Origin: Halothiobacillus sp.
GTDB taxonomy: Bacteria; Pseudomonadota; Gammaproteobacteria; Halothiobacillales; Halothiobacillaceae
DNA: 64,000 bases
Reading direction: 5' to 3'
NCBI GenBank assembly: GCA_023255735.1
Contig: JAGDVP010000012.1
Coordinates: 169,477 to 233,476, forward strand
The notes beneath the pieces were generated by a model. That model saw only the letters and a list, made by a program, of their open reading frames with translations. It was not told where the DNA came from and did no database searches. This document shows positions 8,159-31,291 of this stretch, one piece after another. Numbering within the stretch: the stretch's first letter is position 1; every line of letters begins with the position of its first letter. A program made the translations under genes and the position numbers.

Positions 8159-8679
8159 TCTCGATCCCCGCCGTGACATGCTGCAAAAAATCTCTTTAAT
8201 AAAATCCAAACCGAACCAACCGGCGGCTTAATCTTTGAACGAGCTACCGTGTCAATCCAAAATTTTGTGTATTAATAACACATGCGCCACGGGTGCCCTA
8301 TCCAAAAATTCTTGACCCGTATCAAAAATTTTCACAAAACTTGCCGGTTTAGTAGGTAACACAAGTTAGAGCGTGCTAAAAATAAAAAAACGCCAACGAG
8401 CATGCAAAGCAGCCTAGCAGTTTGAGGCTATTGTACTGATAAAATGCGGCTCAATTGCATCAAATTAGTGCGCGGGCTTTTATTTTTCAATAGCAGTTTT
8501 CTCGGCAAGCGGGAAACCCGCACAATGGTTGCCTAATATAAGAGAATCAAACCATGTCGCTATAAAAAAATTTTTATTGTCTGAAAATCTCAGGGTACTA
8601 AAGTATGCAGGGTCGAACGACAATAAAAGGCCACCAAGCCAAGTTGGCGCTACATGCGTCAGAAAAGGAGAGGAAAACA
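8159..8679. promoter_or_regulatory. Divergent intergenic region, rhd-tusA-dsrE / soxXA
   Basis: This 521-bp AT-rich gap separates two divergent sulfur-metabolism operons and must hold both promoters. I see an interrupted palindrome TGTGT-N7-ACACA at 8266-8282 and a small hairpin (gcggg/cccgc) at 8509-8521. No convincing pair of -35/-10 boxes could be fixed by eye. No credible gene is present; the minus-strand frame at 8480-8686 has no family features. Confidence 0.4.
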
Positions 8680-9072
8680 ATGACACTAAAGATCAGAATG
8701 TTCAATAAAGCCAGCGCTGCCATCGTACTTGCGATGGGCTTGGCTTTTTCGGGGGCATCTCATGCGGCTGAACCCGCCGCAAAGCCTGCGCTAACCCCAG
8801 ATCAGCAAGCCGGTAGAGATATCGCTTTTAGTAAAAGCGAAGGTAATTGCCTTGCTTGCCATGCAATGGCCGGCGGCACTGAGCCTGGGAATGTTGGGCC
8901 AATGCTCGTTGCTATGAAAATTCGTTATCCCGATAAAGAGGATCTGTTCAAAGTTCTATGGGATCCGCGTGAGAAATTTGGTCGTGGGATTATTATGCCG
9001 CCTTTCGGTGATCACAAAATCTTAACCAAAGAACAAATCAACCAAGTGGTTGATTATTTGTATACCCTCTAA
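8680..9072 (+). CDS. soxX: Sulfur-oxidation c-type cytochrome SoxX
   Basis: The start at 8680 is preceded by AAGGAGAGG, and the signal peptide ends near SHAA|EP. The 130-residue product has one haem site, CLACH at residues 57-61, and a distal Met in IIMPPFGDH (Met106), both as in SoxX. The C-terminal helix ITKEQINQVV-like segment is typical. SoxX with SoxA forms the periplasmic complex that couples thiosulfate to the carrier SoxYZ and passes electrons on. It is 44 bp upstream of soxA. Confidence 0.93.
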   Translation: MTLKIRMFNKASAAIVLAMGLAFSGASHAAEPAAKPALTPDQQAGRDIAFSKSEGNCLACHAMAGGTEPGNVGPMLVAMKIRYPDKEDLFKVLWDPREKFGRGIIMPPFGDHKILTKEQINQVVDYLYTL

Positions 9073-9116: not shown

Positions 9117-10001
9117 ATGAAAAAATTTGTCCCACCTCTTTTAATCGCCGGGATAATTGCCGGTATGGGCAGTGCTATTGCTGCCGATGTTAAGTTTAAT
9201 CCGCTCAATAATCCCAGTAATCCTGCTGAATTTGCGAAAGAATTCCGTAATTATTTTTATGAGAATTTCCCGCAAATTAAACACAATGAATACAATATGG
9301 GCGTGTATGGCTTCGATAAGGATGCCTATTCTCAATACAAAAATATGATGGAGTTCCCGCCACAAGACGATTACATCGCCAAGGGGAAAGCAATCTGGGA
9401 AAGTTACAAACTTCCTGATGGCAAACCCTTATCCTCCTGTGTAGGTGATGCAAAGGGTCTGCGCGCTAAATATCCCTACTTCAATACCAAAGACGGCCAA
9501 GTGCATAATCTTGAGCTTGATTTGATTAATTGCCAAAAAAATGCCGGTGTGCCTGAAGATAAAGTGTGGGGTCCCAAACAGGGCTATGCAGATTTAGCAG
9601 CTGTATCCGCTTACTTGTCGAGTGAGTCTAATGGCATGACGGTGAATGTGACAATTCCCGACGACCCGCGCGCTACTGAGGCATTTAACAACGGTAAGGG
9701 AATGTTTTTTCGGAAAACAGGCCAGCTCAATTTTTCTTGCGCCGATTGCCACATGTACCACGCCACGCAGCGTACCCGATCTGAAACAATGCATACGGGC
9801 ATCGGTAATACCACGGGGTTCCCTGTATACCGTTACAGTAAGCAAAATATGATTACACTGAACAACCGGTTGTTCGGTTGCATGCGTGATACGCGGACAA
9901 TTCCATATCCTCAGTATTCGACTCAGTTCCGTGATTTGGAATATTTCTTGGCTTATATCGATAATGGCCAATTGATTAATGGGCCTGCGTTGCGCAAATA
10001 A
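9117..10001 (+). CDS. soxA: Sulfur-oxidation cytochrome SoxA, mono-haem type
   Basis: The 294-residue product has a signal peptide ending near SAIAA|D. The C-terminal haem site is CADCH at 208-212, and the substrate-side cysteine lies in RLFGCM (Cys255), the residue that carries the sulfur in SoxA. The N-terminal haem site of di-haem SoxA is absent: that region reads SSCVGDAKGL with a lone Cys108, and Cys139 could form the disulfide known in mono-haem SoxA proteins. GAGGAGCT precedes the ATG. SoxY, Z, B, C and D are not in the window. Confidence 0.92.
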   Translation: MKKFVPPLLIAGIIAGMGSAIAADVKFNPLNNPSNPAEFAKEFRNYFYENFPQIKHNEYNMGVYGFDKDAYSQYKNMMEFPPQDDYIAKGKAIWESYKLPDGKPLSSCVGDAKGLRAKYPYFNTKDGQVHNLELDLINCQKNAGVPEDKVWGPKQGYADLAAVSAYLSSESNGMTVNVTIPDDPRATEAFNNGKGMFFRKTGQLNFSCADCHMYHATQRTRSETMHTGIGNTTGFPVYRYSKQNMITLNNRLFGCMRDTRTIPYPQYSTQFRDLEYFLAYIDNGQLINGPALRK

Positions 10002-12902: not shown

Positions 12903-13538
12903 TTATTTTTCGGCTAATAAATCGGCTTTAAGTTTTGGCGAGAGCGGGGGTTCCCCAAGCCAAATGCCGAAATAGGCTTGGGCCAACTCGGCATCGTGAC
13001 TGCTAAACAGTGATTTGCCGTTGTACAACAGCTTCAAGGTTGCAGGTAGCGGATTGGCGCCTTCGTTGGTTGCCGGTTGCCATGTCAACTCGTAGCGATC
13101 GCCGGGTTGCACATCCTGCATGGCCGCTTGCAGGGCATCAACTTTGGGTTTGAGCCGTTGCCGCGCCGCGCCGGCGTATTGTTCATCGAGGGCTTTCCAG
13201 CTGGCTTTGGCGATATCGGCAACTGAAACTGAGTGGTGATAGCTTAAAACCAGTGCTTTGGGCGTTGTGGCGTCCAAAATATTGGCCGCTGGCGTGCGCG
13301 CGGGCGCGTACAGTGCGGCATCGTACACATCAAACCACAGGTAGGTGGCAACCCCATTGCCCATTAGTGGCAAGCTGCTTTTTCCCAGCACGATTTGGGT
13401 GGCGGGTGCTTGGTCTGCCGCGTAGGATGCGGCTGTGGCACTGAAACCCAATGCAAGTAAGGCTGCACCTATTCTCGGCATTAGGCACTTTAAAAGAGGG
13501 CATGGCTGGGCTGTGGTTGGATGCATGATGGGTCTCAC
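12903..13538 (-). CDS. Chalcone-isomerase-like periplasmic protein
   Basis: The 211-residue frame begins with GTG that overlaps the stop of the upstream lipoprotein gene as GTGA. An ATG four codons in (MHPTT), or a later one (MPRIGAAL), would give a more standard signal peptide ending near AASYA|A. The body has the bacterial chalcone-isomerase-like pattern: LMGNGVATYLWFDVYDAALYAP, LVLSYHHSVSVADIAKASW, YNGKSLFSSHDAELAQAYFGIWLGEPP. These bacterial homologues lack known isomerase activity and travel with Cfa/DUF1365/DUF3833 genes. It is the last gene of the six-gene operon. Confidence 0.82.
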   Translation of the reverse strand: MRPIMHPTTAQPCPLLKCLMPRIGAALLALGFSATAASYAADQAPATQIVLGKSSLPLMGNGVATYLWFDVYDAALYAPARTPAANILDATTPKALVLSYHHSVSVADIAKASWKALDEQYAGAARQRLKPKVDALQAAMQDVQPGDRYELTWQPATNEGANPLPATLKLLYNGKSLFSSHDAELAQAYFGIWLGEPPLSPKLKADLLAEK

Positions 13539-14071
13539 AGATCAGGATCAGTTTTGGTGAAAAATAAGGTCACTTCGCCCACGCGAATGCCAAATTTGCT
13601 GACATAAGCGCGGTTCATCATGACATTGGGTGAGGCGCGAACCATCCAGTCATCAAACTTCACATCAATGGTGCTGCCGTTGTAGGGGAGTTTTAAGGTG
13701 TAGTGCCAGTTCAGGGCTTGTCCGACCTCGTGCCCATGCGCTACGCCGACAATATCGCCGGCCTTGCCGATATAGCGGTCTTTGCCATCGCGGGTGATAT
13801 GCCACACGCGCTCGCCCGTTTCTCCATCGTTGTATTTGAACTGCTCGTTGAGCACGAACTCATCGCCGACCTTCTTGCCTGTGATATGCACTTTGAAGAT
13901 GCGTTTAATTTCGCCCCCGCGCGATTGAAACATCCCGTAAGCGTAGGTGTTCCCGGCGAAGTATTCTTCGAGATTAAATTGAGGTTGGGTTCCTTGGAAT
14001 TGATTGAGATTCAAGCCGGCGCACCCCGTGAGTGAGAAAATAATGAGTGTTAACAATAGAGTACGTTTCAT
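13535..14071 (-). CDS. DUF3833 lipoprotein
   Basis: The start MKRTLLLTLIIFSLTGC gives a lipobox LTGC and a 178-residue lipoprotein; the frame extends 22 codons further without support. Family features are EEYFAGNTYAYGMFQSRGGEIKRIF, YNDGETGERVW, FDDWMVRASPNVMMNRA and SKFGIRVGEVTLFF. The function is unknown; DUF3833 genes recur beside Cfa-type and DUF1365 genes in gammaproteobacteria. It starts 4 bp after the MFS gene stop and overlaps the chalcone-isomerase-like gene. Confidence 0.88.
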   Translation of the reverse strand: MKRTLLLTLIIFSLTGCAGLNLNQFQGTQPQFNLEEYFAGNTYAYGMFQSRGGEIKRIFKVHITGKKVGDEFVLNEQFKYNDGETGERVWHITRDGKDRYIGKAGDIVGVAHGHEVGQALNWHYTLKLPYNGSTIDVKFDDWMVRASPNVMMNRAYVSKFGIRVGEVTLFFTKTDPDL

Positions 14072-14075
14072 GAGA

Positions 14076-15389
14076 TTACCTCGTGGCGTGGGTTTTAGGT
14101 TGCGGTGAATCGGTATCGGTGAGCTGATTAAAAACAATCCAAGCTGCCAGTAATTTGAACAGTACTGGCAAGCCGCCGTAAATCCAGCCCAGCACGAGGG
14201 TATCTTGTGAGTTATTCGATGCGTTGCCGGCTTGGTAACCGGCGAGATTCAATAAGCCAAATCCCAAACCTACGGCAATCGCCAGGGCAAGTTTGGTGAC
14301 AAGGCCAAATAAGCCAAAAAATAACCCGGTGCGATCACCCGCGCCGGTTTCTGCATCAAAGCCGGCTAAATCGCCTTGAATGGCGGCGGGTAGCGCCATA
14401 TCCGCACCGAGACTTAAGCCTGTGATGACACAAATTAACCCAAATAAGAGGATGTCGCCGGTGTGTAAAAAAGGCACAAAGGCGAAACTTATTGCCGCTA
14501 AGGCAATAGAGAACCCCCAAGCGCGGCGTTTGCCGATGTGGTGGGCGATTGAGGTCCAGAACGGCAACGCCAAAATACCCGCGCCAAAATAGAGCAGCAT
14601 GAGTACGCCTAAGCTCGTGGCGGCGCCTAATCGGTCGGTAATAAATATAATGAATAAGGCGGCCGGAATTCCATTGGCGAGATTGTTTAAGAAAAAACCG
14701 AGCAGCAGGGTGCGCAGCGGTTTATTCGCCCATAACAGCGGCAAGCCTGATATGAGCGCGATAGGACGGCGCTGGTTGCGGCTTTCTGGCACGACGAGAA
14801 ACAATAAAATTAAGGCCAGTGGCAGGCTTGTGGCGACGATCCAAAACACGGCTGAAAGCACGGCCGAAGGTTCGCTACTGCCCAGAATGAGCGGCAAGGC
14901 GGCGGCTAAAATTACGCCCAGTAAGCCTGCGCCTTCTCGCGTTGCTGAAAGGCGGGTGCGGCCATGGGGTGTGGGGTCGGCTTCAGCCCCTAGGCTTAGG
15001 TAAGGCAGGCTGATGAGTGTCCAGCCCAAAAACGCCATAAACGCCCAAAAATAGAGATAATTCAAGCCGATGCCAGCTTGGGGCTGCATTAAATAAGCCA
15101 GTGAGAGAATGAAAATCGGCAAGCCTATGGCGATTAGGGTTTTGCGCCGATACGGGCCGGGTATTAAATCGGCGTAATAGCCCACAATGGGGTCGAGGAT
15201 GACATCCCACAGGCGGCTGAGCATGAGTGCTAAACCCACCGCACCGAGCCCTAATCCCAACTGGTTGGCGTAAAACGGCGGCAGATACACATACAGCGGG
15301 ATGCCCATCAGCGCTAGGGGCAGGCCGGCCAGCCCATAGGCAAAAACCCGGGCGGGTGCGAGCGTGCGCGCTGGGGGTGTGGTGGTCAC
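14076..15389 (-). CDS. MFS transporter, GPH (MelB-like) family
   Basis: The 437-residue product has about 12 hydrophobic segments. The MelB/GPH look is clear: SRLWDVILDPIVGYYADLIPGPYRRKTLIAIGLP between helices 2 and 3, and a second-half AHHIGKRRAWGF loop. The substrate cannot be read from sequence; the operon suggests a lipid- or stress-related solute rather than a sugar. Its GTG start overlaps the cfa stop as GTGA. Confidence 0.85.
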   Translation of the reverse strand: MTTTPPARTLAPARVFAYGLAGLPLALMGIPLYVYLPPFYANQLGLGLGAVGLALMLSRLWDVILDPIVGYYADLIPGPYRRKTLIAIGLPIFILSLAYLMQPQAGIGLNYLYFWAFMAFLGWTLISLPYLSLGAEADPTPHGRTRLSATREGAGLLGVILAAALPLILGSSEPSAVLSAVFWIVATSLPLALILLFLVVPESRNQRRPIALISGLPLLWANKPLRTLLLGFFLNNLANGIPAALFIIFITDRLGAATSLGVLMLLYFGAGILALPFWTSIAHHIGKRRAWGFSIALAAISFAFVPFLHTGDILLFGLICVITGLSLGADMALPAAIQGDLAGFDAETGAGDRTGLFFGLFGLVTKLALAIAVGLGFGLLNLAGYQAGNASNNSQDTLVLGWIYGGLPVLFKLLAAWIVFNQLTDTDSPQPKTHATR

Positions 15390-16636
15390 GCTTGCGCCTG
15401 TTCAACAGCGGCCAGAGGAGGTTTTTCTAAGATAACCTGTGCCACATTGATGTGGCCGGCCAAAAACCCCGCTTCACAGTAGGCCAAATAATAAAGCCAG
15501 GTTTGGCGGAATTGATGATCGAAGCCTTGGGCTTGCAGCGCTTCGGTTTGTTGGCTGAAAGTGTGCGCCCAGCGGTTGAGGGTGCGGGCATAATCGGCCC
15601 CGAATTGGGCGACTTCGGCAACATGCAGGCCGGCTTGTTGCGCTTCGTGATTAAAACGCTCAAGGGTGGGGAGCATGCCACCGGGAAAAATATAGAGCTG
15701 AATAAAATCGGGCTCTTTGCGGTAGTGCTCGAAGGCTTTTTCACCGATGGTGATGACTTGAATAGCCGCGCGCCCGCCGGGTTTGAGGCGGTTGTATACG
15801 GTTTGAAAATAGGTGGGCCAATACCGCTCGCCGACGGCTTCAAACATCTCAATTGAGACAATATGATCGAATTGGCCGGTTTGGTCGCGATAATCGGTGA
15901 GATGAAATTGTGCGCGCGCACTTAAATTGGCGTCACGGATGCGGGCGGTGGCATACGCCTGTTGCTCAGTTGATAGCGTTATGCCGGTGACATTCAAGCC
16001 CATCGCGGCCGCCGTTTCGGCAAATCCGCCCCATCCACAACCAATTTCTAAAATATGTTCGCCGGGCTTGGCGTTCAGCCGCGCGAGTAACCGCTGGTTT
16101 TTTCGAGCTTGCGCCGCTTCAAGCGGTTCATCGGGGGCGCTGAATATTGCCGATGAGTAAGTCATGCTGGAATCGAGCCAGAGCGCGTAAAAATCATTGC
16201 CCAAATCATAATGCGCTGAAATATTGCGTCGGCTGCCGCGTTTGTGATTGGCGCGCAACGCATGTTGCACTCGATGGAGGAGCCTCGCCCAAAACCCGGC
16301 GCGTAAATCGTCGTGCAGACTATCGAAGTTGCGCGCGCCAATCTCCAGCAGCCGGCTTAAGTTATCGGTCGAGAAATCGCCTTGGATATAGCCTTCAGCG
16401 ATACCAATATCGCCGAGCCGTGCGAGCCGGCTAAATAAGCGGGTGGGGTGATGTAGCCGCCATTGTGCACTGAGCTCGGTGTGGCTAGTGCCGCAAAATA
16501 CGCGCTCAACCCCCTCGTCGGTAATCACGCGAATTTGACCTACGCGCAATGAATCCAGCAAAGTTTCTACCCAACGCGCGGTGAGTGGCAGCGCAAACGC
16601 GTCTGATTTTAGGGTTTTGGTTTGACTGAGGGGCAT
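15386..16636 (-). CDS. cfa: Cyclopropane-fatty-acid synthase-type methyltransferase
   Basis: The 416-residue product has an N-terminal lipid-binding part and a C-terminal SAM methyltransferase with motif LEIGCGWGGFAETAA followed by VTGITLSTEQQAYA, both hallmarks of Cfa enzymes. Such enzymes act on unsaturated acyl chains in membrane phospholipids. In clusters with a FAD oxidoreductase and DUF1365 the homologue may make methylated or furan fatty acids (UfaM-like) rather than cyclopropanes; that is inference. It overlaps DUF1365 by 28 bp. Confidence 0.9.
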   Translation of the reverse strand: MPLSQTKTLKSDAFALPLTARWVETLLDSLRVGQIRVITDEGVERVFCGTSHTELSAQWRLHHPTRLFSRLARLGDIGIAEGYIQGDFSTDNLSRLLEIGARNFDSLHDDLRAGFWARLLHRVQHALRANHKRGSRRNISAHYDLGNDFYALWLDSSMTYSSAIFSAPDEPLEAAQARKNQRLLARLNAKPGEHILEIGCGWGGFAETAAAMGLNVTGITLSTEQQAYATARIRDANLSARAQFHLTDYRDQTGQFDHIVSIEMFEAVGERYWPTYFQTVYNRLKPGGRAAIQVITIGEKAFEHYRKEPDFIQLYIFPGGMLPTLERFNHEAQQAGLHVAEVAQFGADYARTLNRWAHTFSQQTEALQAQGFDHQFRQTWLYYLAYCEAGFLAGHINVAQVILEKPPLAAVEQAQA

Positions 16637-17424
16637 GAGCTGATCTCCTGTGAAGGTTTGGGCGGTGCGGTATGAAATACCCCGCCTTTAAGCCAAATTT
16701 TGAGTGCCTGCCAATGAATCAGGCCAATCACTTTGAAGGTTAAAAATGGGATACGCAGGGCTTCACGCCATAAGCTGGCATTACTCAAGGTGCCTCGGTG
16801 GGCGTTGTGGGTGGCAATCAGGGTGAGAACTTCGCCTTCTGGGGCGAGACTGGTTTCACGAATTGAAACGCTCAATCGTGAGTTGGGCTCATCTAAGGGG
16901 CGATTGATGCGAAAGTGATAACGCATGTTCATGTCCAAAAAAGGCGAGACATGGAATACCTTGTCGGCTTGAGCAGTAAACGGGGTGGATAGCGGGGCGC
17001 CCTCATCGTGGAGCAGATAGTGGTGGCATTCGCCAAAGGTGTTGCTTACCTCACAATTAATCGCCACGAGCTCGTCGGCTCCGTTAAAGCAATACCACAC
17101 GGTGAGTGGGTTGAATTGATAGCCCAGCACGCGGGGGTAGGTGTTAATCAGCACGCGACCTGTGGTGATGTCGATGCCTACATCCGCGCAGGCTCGGTTT
17201 ATCCAATCGCGTAAAGAAACCCCCGCTTGGCGCGCACCTAAATCGCGCTCATTAATCGAAAATAAGTTAAAGCGATTGGCCGATAGCCAGCGTAATTGCG
17301 GGAAATTGGCTGAAAAATCATCTAAATCAACTAATAAGCTAAAAACACGGTATTCAAAGCGATAAGCCGGCCCCTGCATCCGCTGATGCATGACCTTGCC
17401 AATATATAAACCGGTGGTGTTCAT
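16609..17424 (-). CDS. DUF1365 family protein
   Basis: The 271-residue product shows the DUF1365 pattern: YIGKVMHQRMQGPAYRFEYRVFSLLVDLDD at the N-terminus, LINTYPRVLGYQFNPLTVWYCF in the middle, and KVFHVSPFLDMNMRYHFRI later. The family is uncharacterised but is nearly always found between a FAD oxidoreductase and a Cfa-type enzyme. It overlaps the upstream gene by 4 bp and cfa by 28 bp, so translation is tightly coupled. Confidence 0.92.
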   Translation of the reverse strand: MNTTGLYIGKVMHQRMQGPAYRFEYRVFSLLVDLDDFSANFPQLRWLSANRFNLFSINERDLGARQAGVSLRDWINRACADVGIDITTGRVLINTYPRVLGYQFNPLTVWYCFNGADELVAINCEVSNTFGECHHYLLHDEGAPLSTPFTAQADKVFHVSPFLDMNMRYHFRINRPLDEPNSRLSVSIRETSLAPEGEVLTLIATHNAHRGTLSNASLWREALRIPFLTFKVIGLIHWQALKIWLKGGVFHTAPPKPSQEISSCPSVKPKP

Positions 17425-18737
17425 GCGGGGGGCTCCCAGGGCGGTGTGATGCCAAATTTTGCCGCCACATTGACCGCCGAGCGCAAACCATCTTCATGAA
17501 AGCCAAAACCCGTCCAAGCGCCCGCGTAATAACACTGCCGATGGCCTTGCAAGCTCGGCAATGCCGCTTGGGCGGCATGGGTGTGCGCATCAAATACGGG
17601 GTGATGGTAGGTAATGCGTTGCCGGGTGAGCTCGGCGCGGGGCGGGCTGAAGGGATTGAGGGTAACGAGCCACGGCGTGGAGGTGGATAAATTTTGTAGG
17701 TGATTCATCCAATAGGTGACGGCCACCGCGCGCGTTTGTGCAGTTTTGGTGCGGCCCAAATAATTCCAGCTCGACCAAACCTTGCGCCGCTTCGGCATTA
17801 AATCGAGATCGTTGTGCAAATAGACCGTGTTTTCTTGAAACTGAAAGGCGCCTAAAATTTCGTTTTCACGCGCATCAGGTTCAGCCAGCATGGCGAGGGT
17901 TTCATCGGCGTGGCTGGCAAACACGCAAGCATCAAAGTGCTGATTGATTTGTGGCAGAAAAACCCCGCCATCACCCCGAATCACTTGGGCTATGGGCGAG
18001 TCGGTAACCGCGGTAAATCGATTAGCTTGGCGCAATGCTTCAACATAGCGATTCGAGCCGCCTTGAATCGTTTCCCATTGGGGCCGATCTTGCACGTTCA
18101 TTAACCCGTGGTTTTCAAAGAATTGCAAAAAGCTCAAAGCAGGAAATTTCAGCATGATTTGCGGCGGGCAAGACCAAATAGCCGCGGCCATGGGTAATAA
18201 ATAATCTTCCCGTAGACCGGCTCCCAATTTGAGTCGATCCAAAAAATCGCCCAGTGATTCGGCCGATTCGGCGCGTGTTGCGCATTTTTTTGCTTCAATA
18301 AGCATCGCTTTGCCCGCTCGATTGAAGCGCAGAATATCTTGCACCATGGTTAAAAATCTGGGGCGCAGCAGATTGCTTTTTTGCGCAAAGAGCGTTGATA
18401 AATCACTACCGCCATATTCCATGCGCCCTTGATCGAGGCTTACGCCAAACGACATTTCGGTGGGTTGCGTTGGGATGTCAAGGTGCGCTAGTAAACCGGT
18501 GAGATGCGGGTAATTGGGGCGATTAAACACGATGAATCCCGTGTCGACTGCTACGGTTTGCGCCGCATCGGCCAAGGTGTGGGTATGGGTGTGGCCACCT
18601 AAATAGCTATTTTTTTCAAACAAGGTGACCTCATGCCGCTCGCCAAGCAGCCAAGCGGTTGCAATCCCTGCAATACCTGAACCAATCACAGCGATTTTTA
18701 GTGAGTTTTGAATAGGAAGGGCTGTGGGGCTTGTCAT
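17421..18737 (-). CDS. FAD-dependent amine-oxidase-like oxidoreductase
   Basis: The 438-residue product opens with a dinucleotide-binding motif (IAVIGSGIAGIATAWLL) and the acidic ribose-binding end of the fold (VTLFEKNSYLGGHTHTH). The C-terminus has the FAD-contact end (YYAGAWTGFGFHEDGLRSAVNVA). The family is linked to membrane-lipid modification beside cfa; the substrate is probably an acyl chain of a phospholipid. It is the first gene of the operon. No Shine-Dalgarno is visible, and a long hairpin lies just upstream of the start. Confidence 0.88.
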   Translation of the reverse strand: MTSPTALPIQNSLKIAVIGSGIAGIATAWLLGERHEVTLFEKNSYLGGHTHTHTLADAAQTVAVDTGFIVFNRPNYPHLTGLLAHLDIPTQPTEMSFGVSLDQGRMEYGGSDLSTLFAQKSNLLRPRFLTMVQDILRFNRAGKAMLIEAKKCATRAESAESLGDFLDRLKLGAGLREDYLLPMAAAIWSCPPQIMLKFPALSFLQFFENHGLMNVQDRPQWETIQGGSNRYVEALRQANRFTAVTDSPIAQVIRGDGGVFLPQINQHFDACVFASHADETLAMLAEPDARENEILGAFQFQENTVYLHNDLDLMPKRRKVWSSWNYLGRTKTAQTRAVAVTYWMNHLQNLSTSTPWLVTLNPFSPPRAELTRQRITYHHPVFDAHTHAAQAALPSLQGHRQCYYAGAWTGFGFHEDGLRSAVNVAAKFGITPPWEPPA

Positions 18738-18828: not shown

Positions 18829-18883
18829 TGTATAGCTTACGTATAGTTTATGTATATCCTATGTATGGCTGTTGTGCAATTAG
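18829..18883 (-). promoter_or_regulatory. Predicted LitR/CarH-type operator: five 11-bp direct repeats
   Basis: On the plus strand the units start at 18829, 18840, 18851, 18862 and 18873: TGTATAGCTTA, CGTATAGTTTA, TGTATATCCTA, TGTATGGCTGT, TGTGCAATTAG. The period is exactly 11 bp and the core TGT(A) is kept in four of five. Read on the operon strand this is the TnnACA-type pattern known for CarH/LitR operators. It lies about 90 bp upstream of the oxidoreductase start, and a related repeat lies in front of the LitR-like gene at 29847-29879. Confidence 0.65.
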
Positions 18884-19106: not shown

Positions 19107-20000
19107 TTAGCCCTTACGCTTTTCGATCATTTGATGGATGAGCGGAGTTAGGATTAAATCCATGGCGTAGCTCATTTTGCCACCAGGTACCACAATGGTG
19201 TTGTAGCGCGACATGAATGATCCGGGGATCATCGACAGCAGGAAGGGGAAATCCGCCCCCGCTTTAGCCGGCTGGCTGAAATGGATGATAACCAAGCTTT
19301 CATCAGGCGTCGGAATATCGCGCGTAATGAATGGGTTTGAGGTATCCACTGTGGGCACACGCTGGAAATTAATATCGGTGCGTGAGAATTGCGGGGTGAT
19401 GTGGTTGATGTAATCGGGCATGCGGCGCAGGATGGTATCCACTGTGGCTTCCGCCGAATAGCCGCGCTCGGCGTTATCACGGAAGATTTTTTGGATCCAT
19501 TCCAAATTCACAATCGGCACAACGCCGACCCCTAAATCAACATGGGCGGCGGCATCCACGGAATCGGTTTTCACTAAGCCATGCAAGCCTTCGTAAAACA
19601 ATAAATCGGTGCCACTGGGAATATCTTCCCACGGGGTAAATTCGCCCGGTTTAAGGCTGGTGTTTAAGCGGGCATTATGTTCGAGCGCCTCTTGATCGCT
19701 ATGAATGTAGTAGCGCTTTTTGCCGGTGCCCGATTCGCCATAGGTTTTAAACAGCTCGGCCAATTTATCGAAATGGTTGGCTTCGGGGCCAAAATGCGAA
19801 AACGAGAAATTACCCGCCGCTTCGGCTTTTTTGACTGCCTCACGAAATTCCATGCGCGATAAGCTGTGAAAGCTATCGCCTTCAATCACCACGGGGGTTA
19901 AATTTTCACGGCGGAAAACTTGCTCGAATGCGCGCTTAACGGTGGTGGTGCCGGCGCCGGATGAACCGGTTACGGCAACGACGGGATGCTTAACGGACAT
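19107..20000 (-). CDS. prk: Phosphoribulokinase (proteobacterial type)
   Basis: This ATP-dependent kinase makes ribulose-1,5-bisphosphate, the CO2 acceptor of the Calvin cycle. The product from MSVKHPVVAV is 297 residues, the size of the proteobacterial octameric form. The P-loop is GSSGAGTTTV, followed by VIEGDSFHSLSR and the conserved FYEGLHG. GGAGC precedes this ATG; the frame extends 35 codons further without support. Rubisco and cbb regulators are not in the window. Its presence is the main evidence for autotrophy. Confidence 0.95.
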   Translation of the reverse strand: MSVKHPVVAVTGSSGAGTTTVKRAFEQVFRRENLTPVVIEGDSFHSLSRMEFREAVKKAEAAGNFSFSHFGPEANHFDKLAELFKTYGESGTGKKRYYIHSDQEALEHNARLNTSLKPGEFTPWEDIPSGTDLLFYEGLHGLVKTDSVDAAAHVDLGVGVVPIVNLEWIQKIFRDNAERGYSAEATVDTILRRMPDYINHITPQFSRTDINFQRVPTVDTSNPFITRDIPTPDESLVIIHFSQPAKAGADFPFLLSMIPGSFMSRYNTIVVPGGKMSYAMDLILTPLIHQMIEKRKG

Positions 20001-20339
20001 AGTTGCTCCTAAACTCAAAGATAAAAAAGAATCACATTGGATCATATCTCGCCTGCGCGGCAAGGGCTGATCAAATGCGACTAACAGATGACAAGTACTG
20101 AGCATTGCGATATTAGGCGTTTATCAGCAGTCGGACAAGCCAAACGAGTGCAAAATTTTGCGCGTGGGTACCACAAGCCAGTGGCCGCCTTGCACTTGGA
20201 ACCTGTGTACGATCTTGATCAACCAATGCAGTGCAAATGTACATAGGCCGAACAAGTGAAGCATAGATAAGCAAAACGCACCCTTTGAGGACGATTTTTG
20301 CGCTGAAATCGGCCGTTAAGCGAAATCGTATAGGGGTTT
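20001..20339. other. Intergenic region between trmB and prk
   Basis: This 339-bp gap holds no credible gene. It must contain the prk promoter. The only structure I see is a perfect 12-bp palindrome GCAAAATTTTGC at 20150-20161, about 150 bp upstream of prk, which could be a regulator site such as a LysR-type (CbbR) box; that is speculative. Confidence 0.35.
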
Positions 20340-28176: not shown

Positions 28177-28635
28177 TTATGCATCATGGTTTGTACTGAG
28201 CGCGCCGGCGATCCCTTCGAGCGCCGCTAGGCGGGCTTTGAGCTGCCGATTTTCTTCTTTTAGCTGCATAAGATCAGAAACATCGTGTTGCACCCCAATA
28301 AAATAAGTGAGCTGATCGGCCTCGTTAAATATGGGTGTGATGGAGAGTTCATTCCAAAATAAACTACCATCTTTGCGGTAATTTCGCACGGTGACGCGGG
28401 TGGGGCGACCCTCGCGGATAGCAGCTTTAACTTCGGCTAACGCGACTTGATCTCGATCATCGCCCTGAAGAAAGCGGCAGTCTTGATACAAAATTTCATC
28501 GGCAGTGTACCCCGTTAGGTGTTCAAACGCGGCATTGGCGTAAATGAGTATGTTGTCGCCACCTTCTTGTTCAGCAATAACAATGCCATCGTTGGATGAA
28601 TCCACTGCTTTTTGCAGTAATTGGGAATCCAGCAT
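28177..28635 (-). CDS. Short LOV blue-light photoreceptor (PpSB1-LOV-like)
   Basis: The 152-residue product is one LOV domain plus a C-terminal coiled-coil helix (LMQLKEENRQLKARLAALEG), with no output domain. The flavin-binding signature is present: photoactive Cys53 in DCRFLQGDDRD, the NYRKDG and FWNEL asparagines, and GVQ with Gln116. From memory it is very similar along its length, including DEILYQDCRFLQGDDRDQ, to Pseudomonas putida PpSB1-LOV, which also has Cys53. The ATG at 28635 is preceded by AGGTGGG; a TTG one codon upstream is less likely. It lies 118 bp downstream of the LitR-like gene. A short palindrome ATAC-CA-GTAT lies at 28680-28689. Confidence 0.92.
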   Translation of the reverse strand: MLDSQLLQKAVDSSNDGIVIAEQEGGDNILIYANAAFEHLTGYTADEILYQDCRFLQGDDRDQVALAEVKAAIREGRPTRVTVRNYRKDGSLFWNELSITPIFNEADQLTYFIGVQHDVSDLMQLKEENRQLKARLAALEGIAGALSTNHDA

Positions 28636-28753
28636 CAAATGCCCACCTTAAAAACGCGTTATGAATATCGCACAGAATCATACCAGTATCCGTGCTGGGT
28701 TTGAGGGGTCTTAGCTGTTCATTTTGGGGATAAAAAAATCAAAAAATGTGGCA

Positions 28754-29821
28754 TTAGGCTAATTTTTTGCGTAAATAATGTTGGCAATGGCTCACATCCC
28801 CTTGGCATACCCCTGAGGCGGTGAGGTTTACGGGGTGTTCATCGGGTAAGAGTTGACACCAATGCAGCTCGGTGGTGCCCGAGAGTCGCCCGCTGGGTGG
28901 CGCGGCGGTGGTATCGGCGGGGTTAAGTAGCCGTATCCAGTGACGTGCTTGCCATCGATTGCAAAGCCGGGCACGCTGGGCTTGGGATAGGGTGGGTGGC
29001 AGGATTTTTACATTGAATGAAGAGGCTAGGCTCATAATAAGCCAGAATTCTTTAGCTATAATCGGGCGGTCAGTTTCCCAGGTATCAACCAGCGTGAGCG
29101 GGTGTTGGCTATCGGGTGTGTGTGCGTTTTGAAATAGCCACCACTCAAGGCGGCTGCGCACATACTGGCTATACCAATGCAGGCCTAAGTCTCGATCTGG
29201 CCACGCCTCGCGCTGTTCAAGCTCGTGCAATCCTTCAATTAAAATGGCGCGCAGCACGACCTCGGTAGGCAGCCAAATTAACGCATGATGTTCCACTGCT
29301 TTGAGTGCTATTGCATCGAGGTGCAGCACGGCAGTTTTCACTCGTTCGAGAAGGTCATTCACTTGGCCGAGGCTTTGTGGGCTTGGTTCAAACAAAGCAG
29401 GTTGGCTGCATTGTTCAGCCAAGGCGGCCTTAGGCTTGGGCGGTTGTAGGAAGTCAGGCTCAGGGGGGCTGGGTGTTTGTTGGGCTTCACGTTCAAGCAA
29501 TACGGCAATTTGCGAAAATCCCATGCCTTGGGCTGACATAGACTTAACCCGTTGAATTTTTTGAATATCTTCTGGGCTGTATAATCGGTGGCCGGAGGGT
29601 GTGCGGATGGGGCAAATCAGTTGATAGCGCCGCTCCCAAGCGCGCAGCGTTATGGGGTTGATTCCGGTGAGATGCGCCACCGCACGGATGGGAAACAGCC
29701 CGTCCTCTTGCCGAACGCATTCATCTAGCTCGTGCTGATCGTCTTTGAAATCAATCGGTTGATCGGTTTCAAGGCTGCGTGCTGCTGCGGGCTGTACGTG
29801 ATGCAAAGCGGGATCGTTCAT
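28754..29821 (-). CDS. LitR/CarH-like MerR-family regulator, apparently without B12 ligands
   Basis: The 355-residue product has an N-terminal MerR helix-turn-helix (residues about 43-110: FPIRAVAHLTGINPITLRAWERRYQLI and TPSGHRLYSPEDIQKI), a Pro-rich linker, then a helical bundle and a Rossmann-like end resembling the CarH/LitR B12-binding module. The B12-ligand features are missing: the region aligned to the CarH Glu-His pair reads HWYSQYVRSRL, and no DxHxxG is present. That matches 'class II' LitR proteins, which use a short LOV partner. It is divergent from an SDR gene with an 11-bp repeat between them. Confidence 0.82.
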   Translation of the reverse strand: MNDPALHHVQPAAARSLETDQPIDFKDDQHELDECVRQEDGLFPIRAVAHLTGINPITLRAWERRYQLICPIRTPSGHRLYSPEDIQKIQRVKSMSAQGMGFSQIAVLLEREAQQTPSPPEPDFLQPPKPKAALAEQCSQPALFEPSPQSLGQVNDLLERVKTAVLHLDAIALKAVEHHALIWLPTEVVLRAILIEGLHELEQREAWPDRDLGLHWYSQYVRSRLEWWLFQNAHTPDSQHPLTLVDTWETDRPIIAKEFWLIMSLASSFNVKILPPTLSQAQRARLCNRWQARHWIRLLNPADTTAAPPSGRLSGTTELHWCQLLPDEHPVNLTASGVCQGDVSHCQHYLRKKLA

Positions 29822-29846
29822 GCCGGTCTCATGGGGATAGGTTTGG

Positions 29847-29879
29847 TGTATAACTTTTGTATCGAAATTGTAGCGGGCT
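29847..29879. promoter_or_regulatory. Predicted LitR operator: three 11-bp direct repeats
   Basis: Units start at 29847, 29858 and 29869: TGTATAACTTT, TGTATCGAAAT, TGTAGCGGGCT. TGTA is exact in all three and the period is exactly 11 bp. The first unit matches the 18829 operator unit TGTATAGCTTA at 9 of 11 positions. The site lies 25 bp upstream of the LitR-like start and 90 bp upstream of the divergent SDR start, so it could control both. Confidence 0.65.
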
Positions 29880-29969
29880 TTGGGCGATTAACAAGCGCTG
29901 TTTGGGGTTTAAGGTATAGCGGCCGGAGAATCGGCTATGCTCAAAATAAGCCATTAAGGAGTGAGCGTT

Positions 29970-30818
29970 ATGTCTAATAATTCGGGAATTAATCTGGATG
30001 AGCCGCAAGCCGGCTCGCCAAACCCTGCGCTCTTTGACGCATTGCAAGTGGCGCGCATGGGCACAACTGCGTCTCCCCGGGTGACATGGATTGTGGGTGC
30101 CAGCAGCGGTATTGGCCGGGCATTGGCCGATGAGCTGGTGTTGCGGGGCGATGCGGTTGTGGTTTCGGCGCGCAGCATGGCGCCATTGCTTGAGCAGGCA
30201 GTCATCCAGCCGCAACGCATCATGCCGATTGCGGTTGATGTGACCGATTTGGCGAGTTTAGAGCGTGCGCTAACCCAAATTTTAATGCATTGGGGGCGGG
30301 TGGACCGCGTGATTTTAAATGCGGCTGATTATGCGCCCATGAGTTTGGCAGAATTTAATCCTGACGTGTTTGAGCGCTTAATGCGGATTAATTTTATGGG
30401 GGTTATTTATGGCATTGAAGCAGTGCGGGGCTATTTTTTAGCGCGCGGTGCGGGGCAAATAATTATTACGGCCAGCGTGGCCGGCTACCGGGGGCTGCCT
30501 TATGCGGCGCCTTATGGCGCAACTAAGGCGGCGCTCATTAACATGGTTGAATCTCTGGCGCCTGAATTTGCTGCTTTAGGGGTTCGGTTGCGCGTGATTA
30601 ACCCAGGCTTTGTACGCACGTCGCTTACCGCTAAAAACACGTTTACCATGCCGGGTATCATTGAGCCGGCGCAGGCAGCTTTGCACATTGCGCGTCAATT
30701 AGAGGGCAATCGGTTTGAGATATTGGTGCCGCGTGGTTTTGGTTGGCTGATGAAGCTTATTCGTGTTTTGCCTTATCCCATTTTTTTTGCCTTAACGCGA
30801 CGGATGTTGAAAAAATGA
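29970..30818 (+). CDS. Short-chain dehydrogenase/reductase
   Basis: The 282-residue product has a cofactor motif VGASSGIGRALADEL and the catalytic YxxxK as YGATKAALIN, with an upstream TASVAG serine. About 35 extra residues precede the Rossmann fold. AAGGAG lies 9 bases before the ATG at 29970; the GTG at 29961 directly abuts it and is rejected. The C-terminal helix LMKLIRVLPYPIFFALTRRML is hydrophobic and may be membrane-associated. It is coupled to the next gene by an ATGA overlap. Confidence 0.88.
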   Translation: MSNNSGINLDEPQAGSPNPALFDALQVARMGTTASPRVTWIVGASSGIGRALADELVLRGDAVVVSARSMAPLLEQAVIQPQRIMPIAVDVTDLASLERALTQILMHWGRVDRVILNAADYAPMSLAEFNPDVFERLMRINFMGVIYGIEAVRGYFLARGAGQIIITASVAGYRGLPYAAPYGATKAALINMVESLAPEFAALGVRLRVINPGFVRTSLTAKNTFTMPGIIEPAQAALHIARQLEGNRFEILVPRGFGWLMKLIRVLPYPIFFALTRRMLKK

Positions 30819-31291
30819 CGAACCCAGCGGCGCAAAGCCCCATTTTAGCGACGGCAATTGAGCGGTTCGTGCACGTGATGAGCACCCTGAATGCCGATAA
30901 TGTATCTGAGTTGAAATGGCTGTTTACCGAATCGGCGCGATTCAAAGATCCCTTTAATGATGTGGTAGGCCGTGCGGCGATTGAGCGGGTTTTTACCCAT
31001 GGTTTGAAACAATGCCCCGCGTTGCGCTTCGTGGTGGATGAAATTGCGCCCGTGACCCCCAGCAACCCATCGGCTGGCGTGGTGTTTTTTTATTGGCGGT
31101 TTCTCTGTGGTGGCCTTAACGCTGCGCCCGAGGCGCTCTACATTACCGGCGTGAGCCGGGTGGTATTCGATGCCGATGGGCTGGTGTGCGAGCATATCGA
31201 TTTTTGGGATCCGGCCGAGCAGTTATATAGCCGTGTGCCCGTGCTTAACGGGTTGATGGGGTGGATTCGCCGGCGATTATCGGCGCGGTGA
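30815..31291 (+). CDS. NTF2/SnoaL-like protein
   Basis: The 158-residue product has a nuclear-transport-factor-2-like fold pattern: a first helix (AIERFVHVMSTL), the strand ARFKDPFNDVVG with the RAAIERVFTHGL helix, and a late VCEHIDFWDPAEQLYSRVPVL segment. Its ATG overlaps the SDR stop (ATGA). In gammaproteobacteria this SDR-NTF2 pair often accompanies photolyase, DUF1365 and Cfa-type genes. The function is unknown. A longer frame from 30743 overlaps the SDR and is rejected. Confidence 0.8.
   Translation: MTNPAAQSPILATAIERFVHVMSTLNADNVSELKWLFTESARFKDPFNDVVGRAAIERVFTHGLKQCPALRFVVDEIAPVTPSNPSAGVVFFYWRFLCGGLNAAPEALYITGVSRVVFDADGLVCEHIDFWDPAEQLYSRVPVLNGLMGWIRRRLSAR

Follow-up and report, generated by a model that had tools for sequence, protein, structure and literature searches.

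A predicted blue-light switch in Halothiobacillus: a short LOV protein beside a LitR-type regulator lacking B12 ligands, and its probable lipid-gene targets

The B12-ligand motifs of the repressor CarH are W-x9-EH and DxHxxG. CarH binds tandem 11-base-pair (bp) repeats of the form nnnnTnnACAn laid over promoter elements (PMC9304148). Class II LitR proteins, in turn, are described as retaining the 4-helix bundle only, and in Pseudomonas mendocina the repressor PmlR2 loses DNA binding when its partner PmSB-LOV, once lit, binds its N-terminal domain, for which Cys53 is required; the site of PplR1 and PmlR2, T(G/A)TACA-N12-TGTA(C/T)A, is not part of the class II definition, pmlR2 expression is called constitutive, and ufaM and phrB, whose operon also holds a short-chain dehydrogenase/reductase (SDR) and a flavin adenine dinucleotide (FAD) oxidoreductase, rise ~25-33 fold in light (PMC9758184). 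The furan fatty acid pathway involves UfaD, a desaturase with NAD/FAD domains, the DUF1365 protein UfaO and the S-adenosylmethionine (SAM) methylase UfaM (PMC7380195). Here, we describe a locus in a 64,000-nt stretch of Halothiobacillus sp. DNA (hereafter the window; contig JAGDVP010000012.1, from an assembly of 2.06 Mb in 29 contigs, 93.5% complete), where the gene of a short LOV protein, a predicted blue-light sensor, adjoins that of a MerR-family regulator of the LitR/CarH fold.

We consider it very likely that this pair constitutes a repressor circuit relieved by blue light, which is free of B12, acts on two repeat arrays and has lipid modification as its output. What the analysis yielded directly are the two genes, the predicted fold of LitR, the loss of its ligands, the conserved adjacency, and the arrays with their positions. 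The flavin photocycle, the binding of LOV to LitR, the repression and the lipid product are carried over from homologous systems, and by that analogy LitR would, in the dark, sit as oligomers on tandem 11-bp repeats in the gap between LitR and an SDR-SnoaL gene pair and at the promoter of a FAD/DUF1365/CMAS operon. Blue light would produce an adduct of Cys53 and flavin mononucleotide (FMN) in the LOV protein, which would then bind LitR, most probably through the N-terminal, DNA-binding part of LitR by the precedent of PmlR2, and strip it off the DNA. This release would turn on the fatty-acid modification genes and, as feedback, LitR itself, with B12 playing no part in the switch.

The LOV protein (152 aa; 28177..28635, minus strand, with its ATG at 28635 and its stop at 28177) is, by its core, its adduct cysteine and the residues of its FMN site, a PpSB-type short LOV, and flavin binding is predicted for it. 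Cys53 (in DCRFLQG), Asn85, Asn95 and Gln116 do not vary in an alignment of 17 LOV proteins that includes the window's own, and Pfam gave PAS-family matches and no effector domain, in keeping with an earlier note on this DNA, made from the sequence alone, which had recognised a single-domain LOV protein by Cys53 and Gln116; the tail, taken for a coiled coil in that note, is a putative one, visible here as sequence that can be aligned. The pair might also be a relic, or sense redox state instead of light, with the LOV protein gating LitR through the redox state of its flavin: LOV flavins show redox responses and the hosts are sulfur oxidisers, the names SulCav, Soudan and DeMMO among them suggesting caves or mines. 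Such a reading is highly unlikely in view of the invariant adduct-forming cysteine, the intact state of both genes in the window and a target gene set resembling the light-induced set described for P. mendocina. The top PDB matches of the LOV protein (phmmer, E ~1e-57) were chains named 'Sensory box protein' and similar, including 3sw1 and 5j3w, which are PpSB1-LOV of Pseudomonas putida. It shares the DCRFLQ site with PpSB1-LOV and differs from it at residue 66, which is Leu here and Arg there; as the exchange R66I makes dark recovery of PpSB1-LOV ~100-fold faster (PMC6047819, also for the identity of the two structures), Leu66 would predict a quicker dark recovery than that of PpSB1-LOV.

The regulator (355 aa; 28754..29821, minus strand, ATG at 29821) is the single LitR match in its genome and carries a LitR/CarH-type MerR helix-turn-helix (HTH) at its N-terminus (residues 44-111), and its structure model contains a 4-helix bundle and a Rossmann-like domain, i.e. 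both halves of the cobalamin-binding fold. On alignment, W207 corresponds to the Trp of CarH, a gap takes the place of the Glu in the Glu-His pair, His215 stands opposite the His of that pair in one weak alignment, and the DxHxxG region holds no His between residues 241 and 293; no Pfam match to the B12-binding_2 domain was obtained at E<=1. By these alignments the B12 ligands of class I LitR/CarH are missing. The earlier note had described a CarH-like C-terminal half devoid of the Glu-His pair and of DxHxxG and had proposed a structure prediction against CarH; the model returned a CarH-type bundle and Rossmann-like fold, and the B12-binding site, looked for on alignment, is not intact. Since the model keeps both cobalamin-fold halves, W207 is retained and His215 could match the His of CarH, LitR might instead sense light itself through unusually bound B12 or another chromophore, leaving the LOV protein to serve something else. 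However, besides the missing Glu and the lack of His in the DxHxxG region, position 215 is His in only 6 of 12 aligned LitRs of the window's type from the family (by which we mean a 27-genome Halothiobacillaceae grouping; NCBI places Guyparkeria in Thioalkalibacteraceae). Together with the pairing described below, this makes a self-sensing LitR very improbable. The largest differences in the HTH between LOV-linked LitRs and those with the B12 motif are at positions 47, 50 and 96, which could mark the LOV interface; the comparison is confounded by kinship, and we offer it as a lead.

LitR and LOV are both on the minus strand, LitR first, separated by the 118 bp that the earlier note had reported (28636-28753), and no promoter-like or terminator-like match was found in 28560-28860, which fits co-transcription of the two genes and does not show it. 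A short LOV is present in 23 of the 27 family genomes and LitR adjoins it in every one, so that the search for adjacent pairs in related genomes, suggested earlier as a check, found them wherever the LOV is present; in the four LOV-less genomes there are weak MerR matches only (three genomes) or a LitR that ends at a contig edge (G019). The nearest named LitRs belong to Halothiobacillus sp. 35-54-62 and to a metagenome-assembled genome (MAG) titled Halothiobacillus neapolitanus, and the records of the remaining members bear the names Halothiobacillus, Guyparkeria or Halothiobacillaceae. Over 80 named loci, holding 81 LitR open reading frames (ORFs), LOV lies at most 600 bp from LitR in 45, of which 17 are arranged on the same strand, 18 convergently and 10 divergently; the same-strand tandem accounts for all 17 LOV-adjacent family loci vs 0 of the 28 others. 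With the PpSB-type LOV, the CarH fold free of B12 ligands and the unbroken adjacency, the parts of the proposed flavin-based light switch that sequence can address are in agreement. Outside the family a short LOV does not imply a LitR, as LitR was found in 2 (G187, G217) of 18 further LOV-match regions fetched in a wider survey from a sample of 369 genomes and was missing from the other 16, some of them with short LOVs (G248, G227, G388, G296) and some with long proteins; G079 also has a LitR beside a LOV.

Of the LitRs that have the B12 motif, 0 of 18 had a LOV gene in the fetched locus, vs 52 of 63 of those lacking it (the latter including contig-edge cases, e.g. L161, L168 and L169, as well as the second L166 LitR), and this, like the adjacency, speaks against LitR being its own sensor, although on the tree the contrast comes down to one change. 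We rejected it as a statistical association: the Fisher p of 7.6e-11 misleads, as all 18 B12-motif LitRs group in a single clade, with support of 99 in a quick full-length tree (80 rows, midpoint root, long branches, L161 and the second LitR of L166 left out), and an independent-pairs test gave nothing. In the same tree, the family LitRs fall beside the B12-motif clade and, on a separate deep branch, apart from the LOV-linked LitRs of Pseudomonas, with support of 83-86 and long branches.

Upstream of LitR, between it and the divergent SDR-SnoaL pair, lies a predicted operator of three tandem 11-bp TGTA repeats, TGTATAACTTT TGTATCGAAAT TGTAGCGGGCT (operator 1, 29847..29879), which overlaps the -10 hexamer of a predicted sigma-70 promoter of LitR (TTGTTA-N16-TACAAT, 29867..29894, minus strand; a consensus match only, shuffles giving a mean of 0.2). 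A second predicted operator, of five tandem 11-bp TGTA-type repeats, of which the second reads CGTA and the last TGTG, was located upstream of a ufa-like operon (operator 2, 18829..18883), and the promoter-like match inside it is no better than what shuffles yield (mean 0.5). Tandem 11-bp direct repeats at a promoter, as in CarH operators, are present, and TnnACA is matched in part, being fitted fully by one of the three repeats of operator 1 and three of the five of operator 2. TGTA pairs in 26 loci (close relatives and three LOV-less LitRs included, L066 excluded for having no TGTA pair) show spacing peaks at 11 and 22, and TGYA-N7-TGYA occurs in 25 of the 26 vs a shuffle mean of 0.77, the lone miss, L077, having a spacing of 12.

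We trained a matrix on the DUF1365-operon arrays of 11 other genomes and scored it on the window and on 40 simulated windows, and it ranked the LitR site first (21.3) and the second site second (20.3), the best match elsewhere in the window reaching 4.5 and the maximum of the simulated windows 13.1. This ranking bears on whether the light switch, though working, might control only LitR and SDR-SnoaL, the array at 18829-18883 belonging to another regulator, as its greater length and degeneracy compared with operator 1 could suggest. We regard this narrower regulon as unlikely, given that a matrix built from other genomes' DUF1365-operon arrays alone puts the LitR-SDR site first, that SDR-SnoaL and the FAD operon of G009 and of G002 point away from each other with one shared array between them, and that the window's genome has no second LitR match. 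In the whole genome, a relaxed three-repeat pattern returned 5 sites, namely the two operators and three inside long ORFs (reversed control, 1). Over 23 family genomes, a stricter LitR-promoter-type pattern returned 22 sites, of which 18 are at LitR promoters and 4 elsewhere (reversed control, 8). By the stricter pattern, two of the 23 genomes, both of the Guyparkeria group, carry further arrays of 11-bp TGTA repeats, located upstream of a PALP-family enzyme (L273:6749-6792, L274:6314-6357), those in L273 overlapping the start region of a PAS-MCP chemotaxis ORF on the opposite strand.

TGTACA-N12-TGTACA occurred in 0 of 17 family loci (fetched flanks up to 8 kb), and 11-bp pairs in 15 of them and in 15 of 18 B12-motif loci. 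The 35 other LOV-linked loci held N12 sites in 9 (23 sites, 0.00 expected) and 11-bp pairs in 7 (8 sites, 3.4 expected), and among 10 loci with neither B12 motif nor LOV, 11-bp pairs were found in 3 and an N12 site in 1. Some LOV-linked loci beyond the family (Thiomicrorhabdus, Denitrificimonas, unnamed MAGs) likewise have 11-bp pairs next to these genes, so the variant may extend further.

The putative targets form two operons. Divergent from LitR, on the plus strand, are the SDR gene (29970..30818, its ATG picked by eye from its AAGGAG) and the adjoining gene of a SnoaL-like protein (30815..31291; PF12680). The operon behind operator 2, on the minus strand, encodes an FAD-dependent oxidoreductase with UfaD-like domains (17421..18737; PF13450, PF01593), a DUF1365 protein of the UfaO family (16609..17424; PF07103), a CMAS-type, UfaM/Cfa-like SAM methyltransferase (15386..16636; PF02353), an MFS_2 transporter (14076..15389) and a DUF3833 protein (13535..14137), and a chalcone-isomerase-like protein (12903..13538; PF16036). 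By analogy with the furan pathway, this operon would most likely serve the making of furan fatty acids, or of lipids akin to them, that guard against light-driven oxidation. DUF1365 is present in 17 of the 27 family genomes, and the array lies upstream of the operon in 15 of these, the contig ending there in the remaining two (G018, G001); in G022, where the FAD gene was not detected, DUF1365 is the gene that follows the array.

In that same genome (L092, L272) the SDR matches come in two pieces and DUF1365 is fragmented, and LitR, LOV and the arrays are kept. In G007 (L077:8428-8574) SnoaL is down to a 49-residue stretch and an SDR match is absent beside LitR, so the divergent operon seems decayed there. 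At L063 and L065, LitR is divergent from a folE-like gene (GTP cyclohydrolase I, identified by eye); folE is light-induced in Pseudomonas. The window also contains SoxX (8605-9072), SoxA (9117-10001) and phosphoribulokinase (19107-20105), the Sox and Calvin-cycle genes that had been said to lie near the pair.

Several points weigh against a light-relieved LitR circuit with lipid output. The Rossmann-like domain of the modelled LitR calls for caution vs the class II description, and the CarH alignment has a second stretch that is non-significant alone (i-Evalue 180), the fold being assigned from the model. The operator layout is unlike that proven for PmlR2/PplR1, so binding details may differ. 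The putative identity with UfaD, UfaO and UfaM of Rhodobacter is based on domains and gene order, and a DUF1365 match is absent in 6 of the 23 LOV-LitR genomes (G003, G004, G006, G007, G010, G016), two of which, G006 and G016, are single-contig assemblies, so that the lipid output is not universal. Photolyase was dropped as a target: around the two photolyase/cryptochrome matches of the window's genome (G000:C16:101158-101637, G000:C21:50749-51117) no strict array occurred in the 19 and 18 kb fetched, and one relaxed repeat pair lies ~2.2 kb from the first.

As to how such a circuit arose, we tentatively put forward a photoreceptor swap, which is possible and somewhat less probable than not: a CarH-type repressor would have lost B12 and kept its fold, its oligomeric binding to 11-bp repeats and its lipid target, and LOV would have taken over sensing by disassembling the oligomer. 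In 10 of the 18 B12-motif LitR loci (L173, L178, L179, L186, L187, L188, L204, L219, L221, L222), the fetched flanks (8 kb at most) include a homologue of the FAD (UfaD-like) gene, accompanied by DUF1365 in 9 and by 11-bp repeat pairs in 8 of the ten, so operator and output would have stayed as the chromophore went from cobalamin to flavin. Given the midpoint root, the long branches and the support of 83-86, we treat the swap as a hypothesis.

Literature searches, whose coverage mostly excluded subscription papers, found no LOV-domain report for Halothiobacillus; the matches listed for Halothiobacillus with blue light were judged unrelated, and among those listed for LitR with furan lipids and for LitR or LOV in sulfur oxidisers nothing came closer than PMC9758184. 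The locus is a case of a well-conserved system of known type in a lineage for which no report was found, with a CarH-like operator layout and a probable lipid regulon. A similar switch is already proven in Pseudomonas; new here are its likely targets and operator sites, as predicted from sequence. It would carry a two-protein light switch known mainly from Pseudomonas over to sulfur-oxidising autotrophs of one family, and the named targets and operators make the claim testable in cultured Halothiobacillus or Guyparkeria. It also brings two bodies of literature together: if true, LitR gated by a LOV protein while using an operator of the CarH type would illustrate how a single repressor scaffold can come under the control of either B12 or flavin, which would be useful for optogenetic design.

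Compared with the described systems, the pair resembles PmlR2/PmSB-LOV of P. mendocina in having a short LOV with Cys53 beside a B12-free MerR-type LitR, and in the kind of target genes (SDR, FAD oxidoreductase, UfaM). The earlier note had placed this precedent in P. putida; a B12-free LitR released by a lit LOV is indeed published, but the biochemical proof comes from P. mendocina (PMC9758184). Unlike that pair, the family genes stand in tandem on one strand, 11-bp repeats take the place of TGTACA-N12-TGTACA, and an array lies at LitR's own promoter, whereas pmlR2 is constitutive. From the Rhodobacter pathway (PMC7380195), which has the same FAD oxidoreductase, DUF1365 and SAM methyltransferase domains, the window differs in that a single operon, under a LitR-type array, combines all three with MFS, DUF3833 and chalcone-isomerase-like genes. 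CarH and class I LitR of Thermus, Bacillus and Myxococcus (PMC9304148) share with the window LitR the MerR domain, the modelled bundle and Rossmann fold, and tandem 11-bp repeat operators over promoter elements, and differ from it in that here the B12 ligands are missing and the presumed sensor is the LOV protein.
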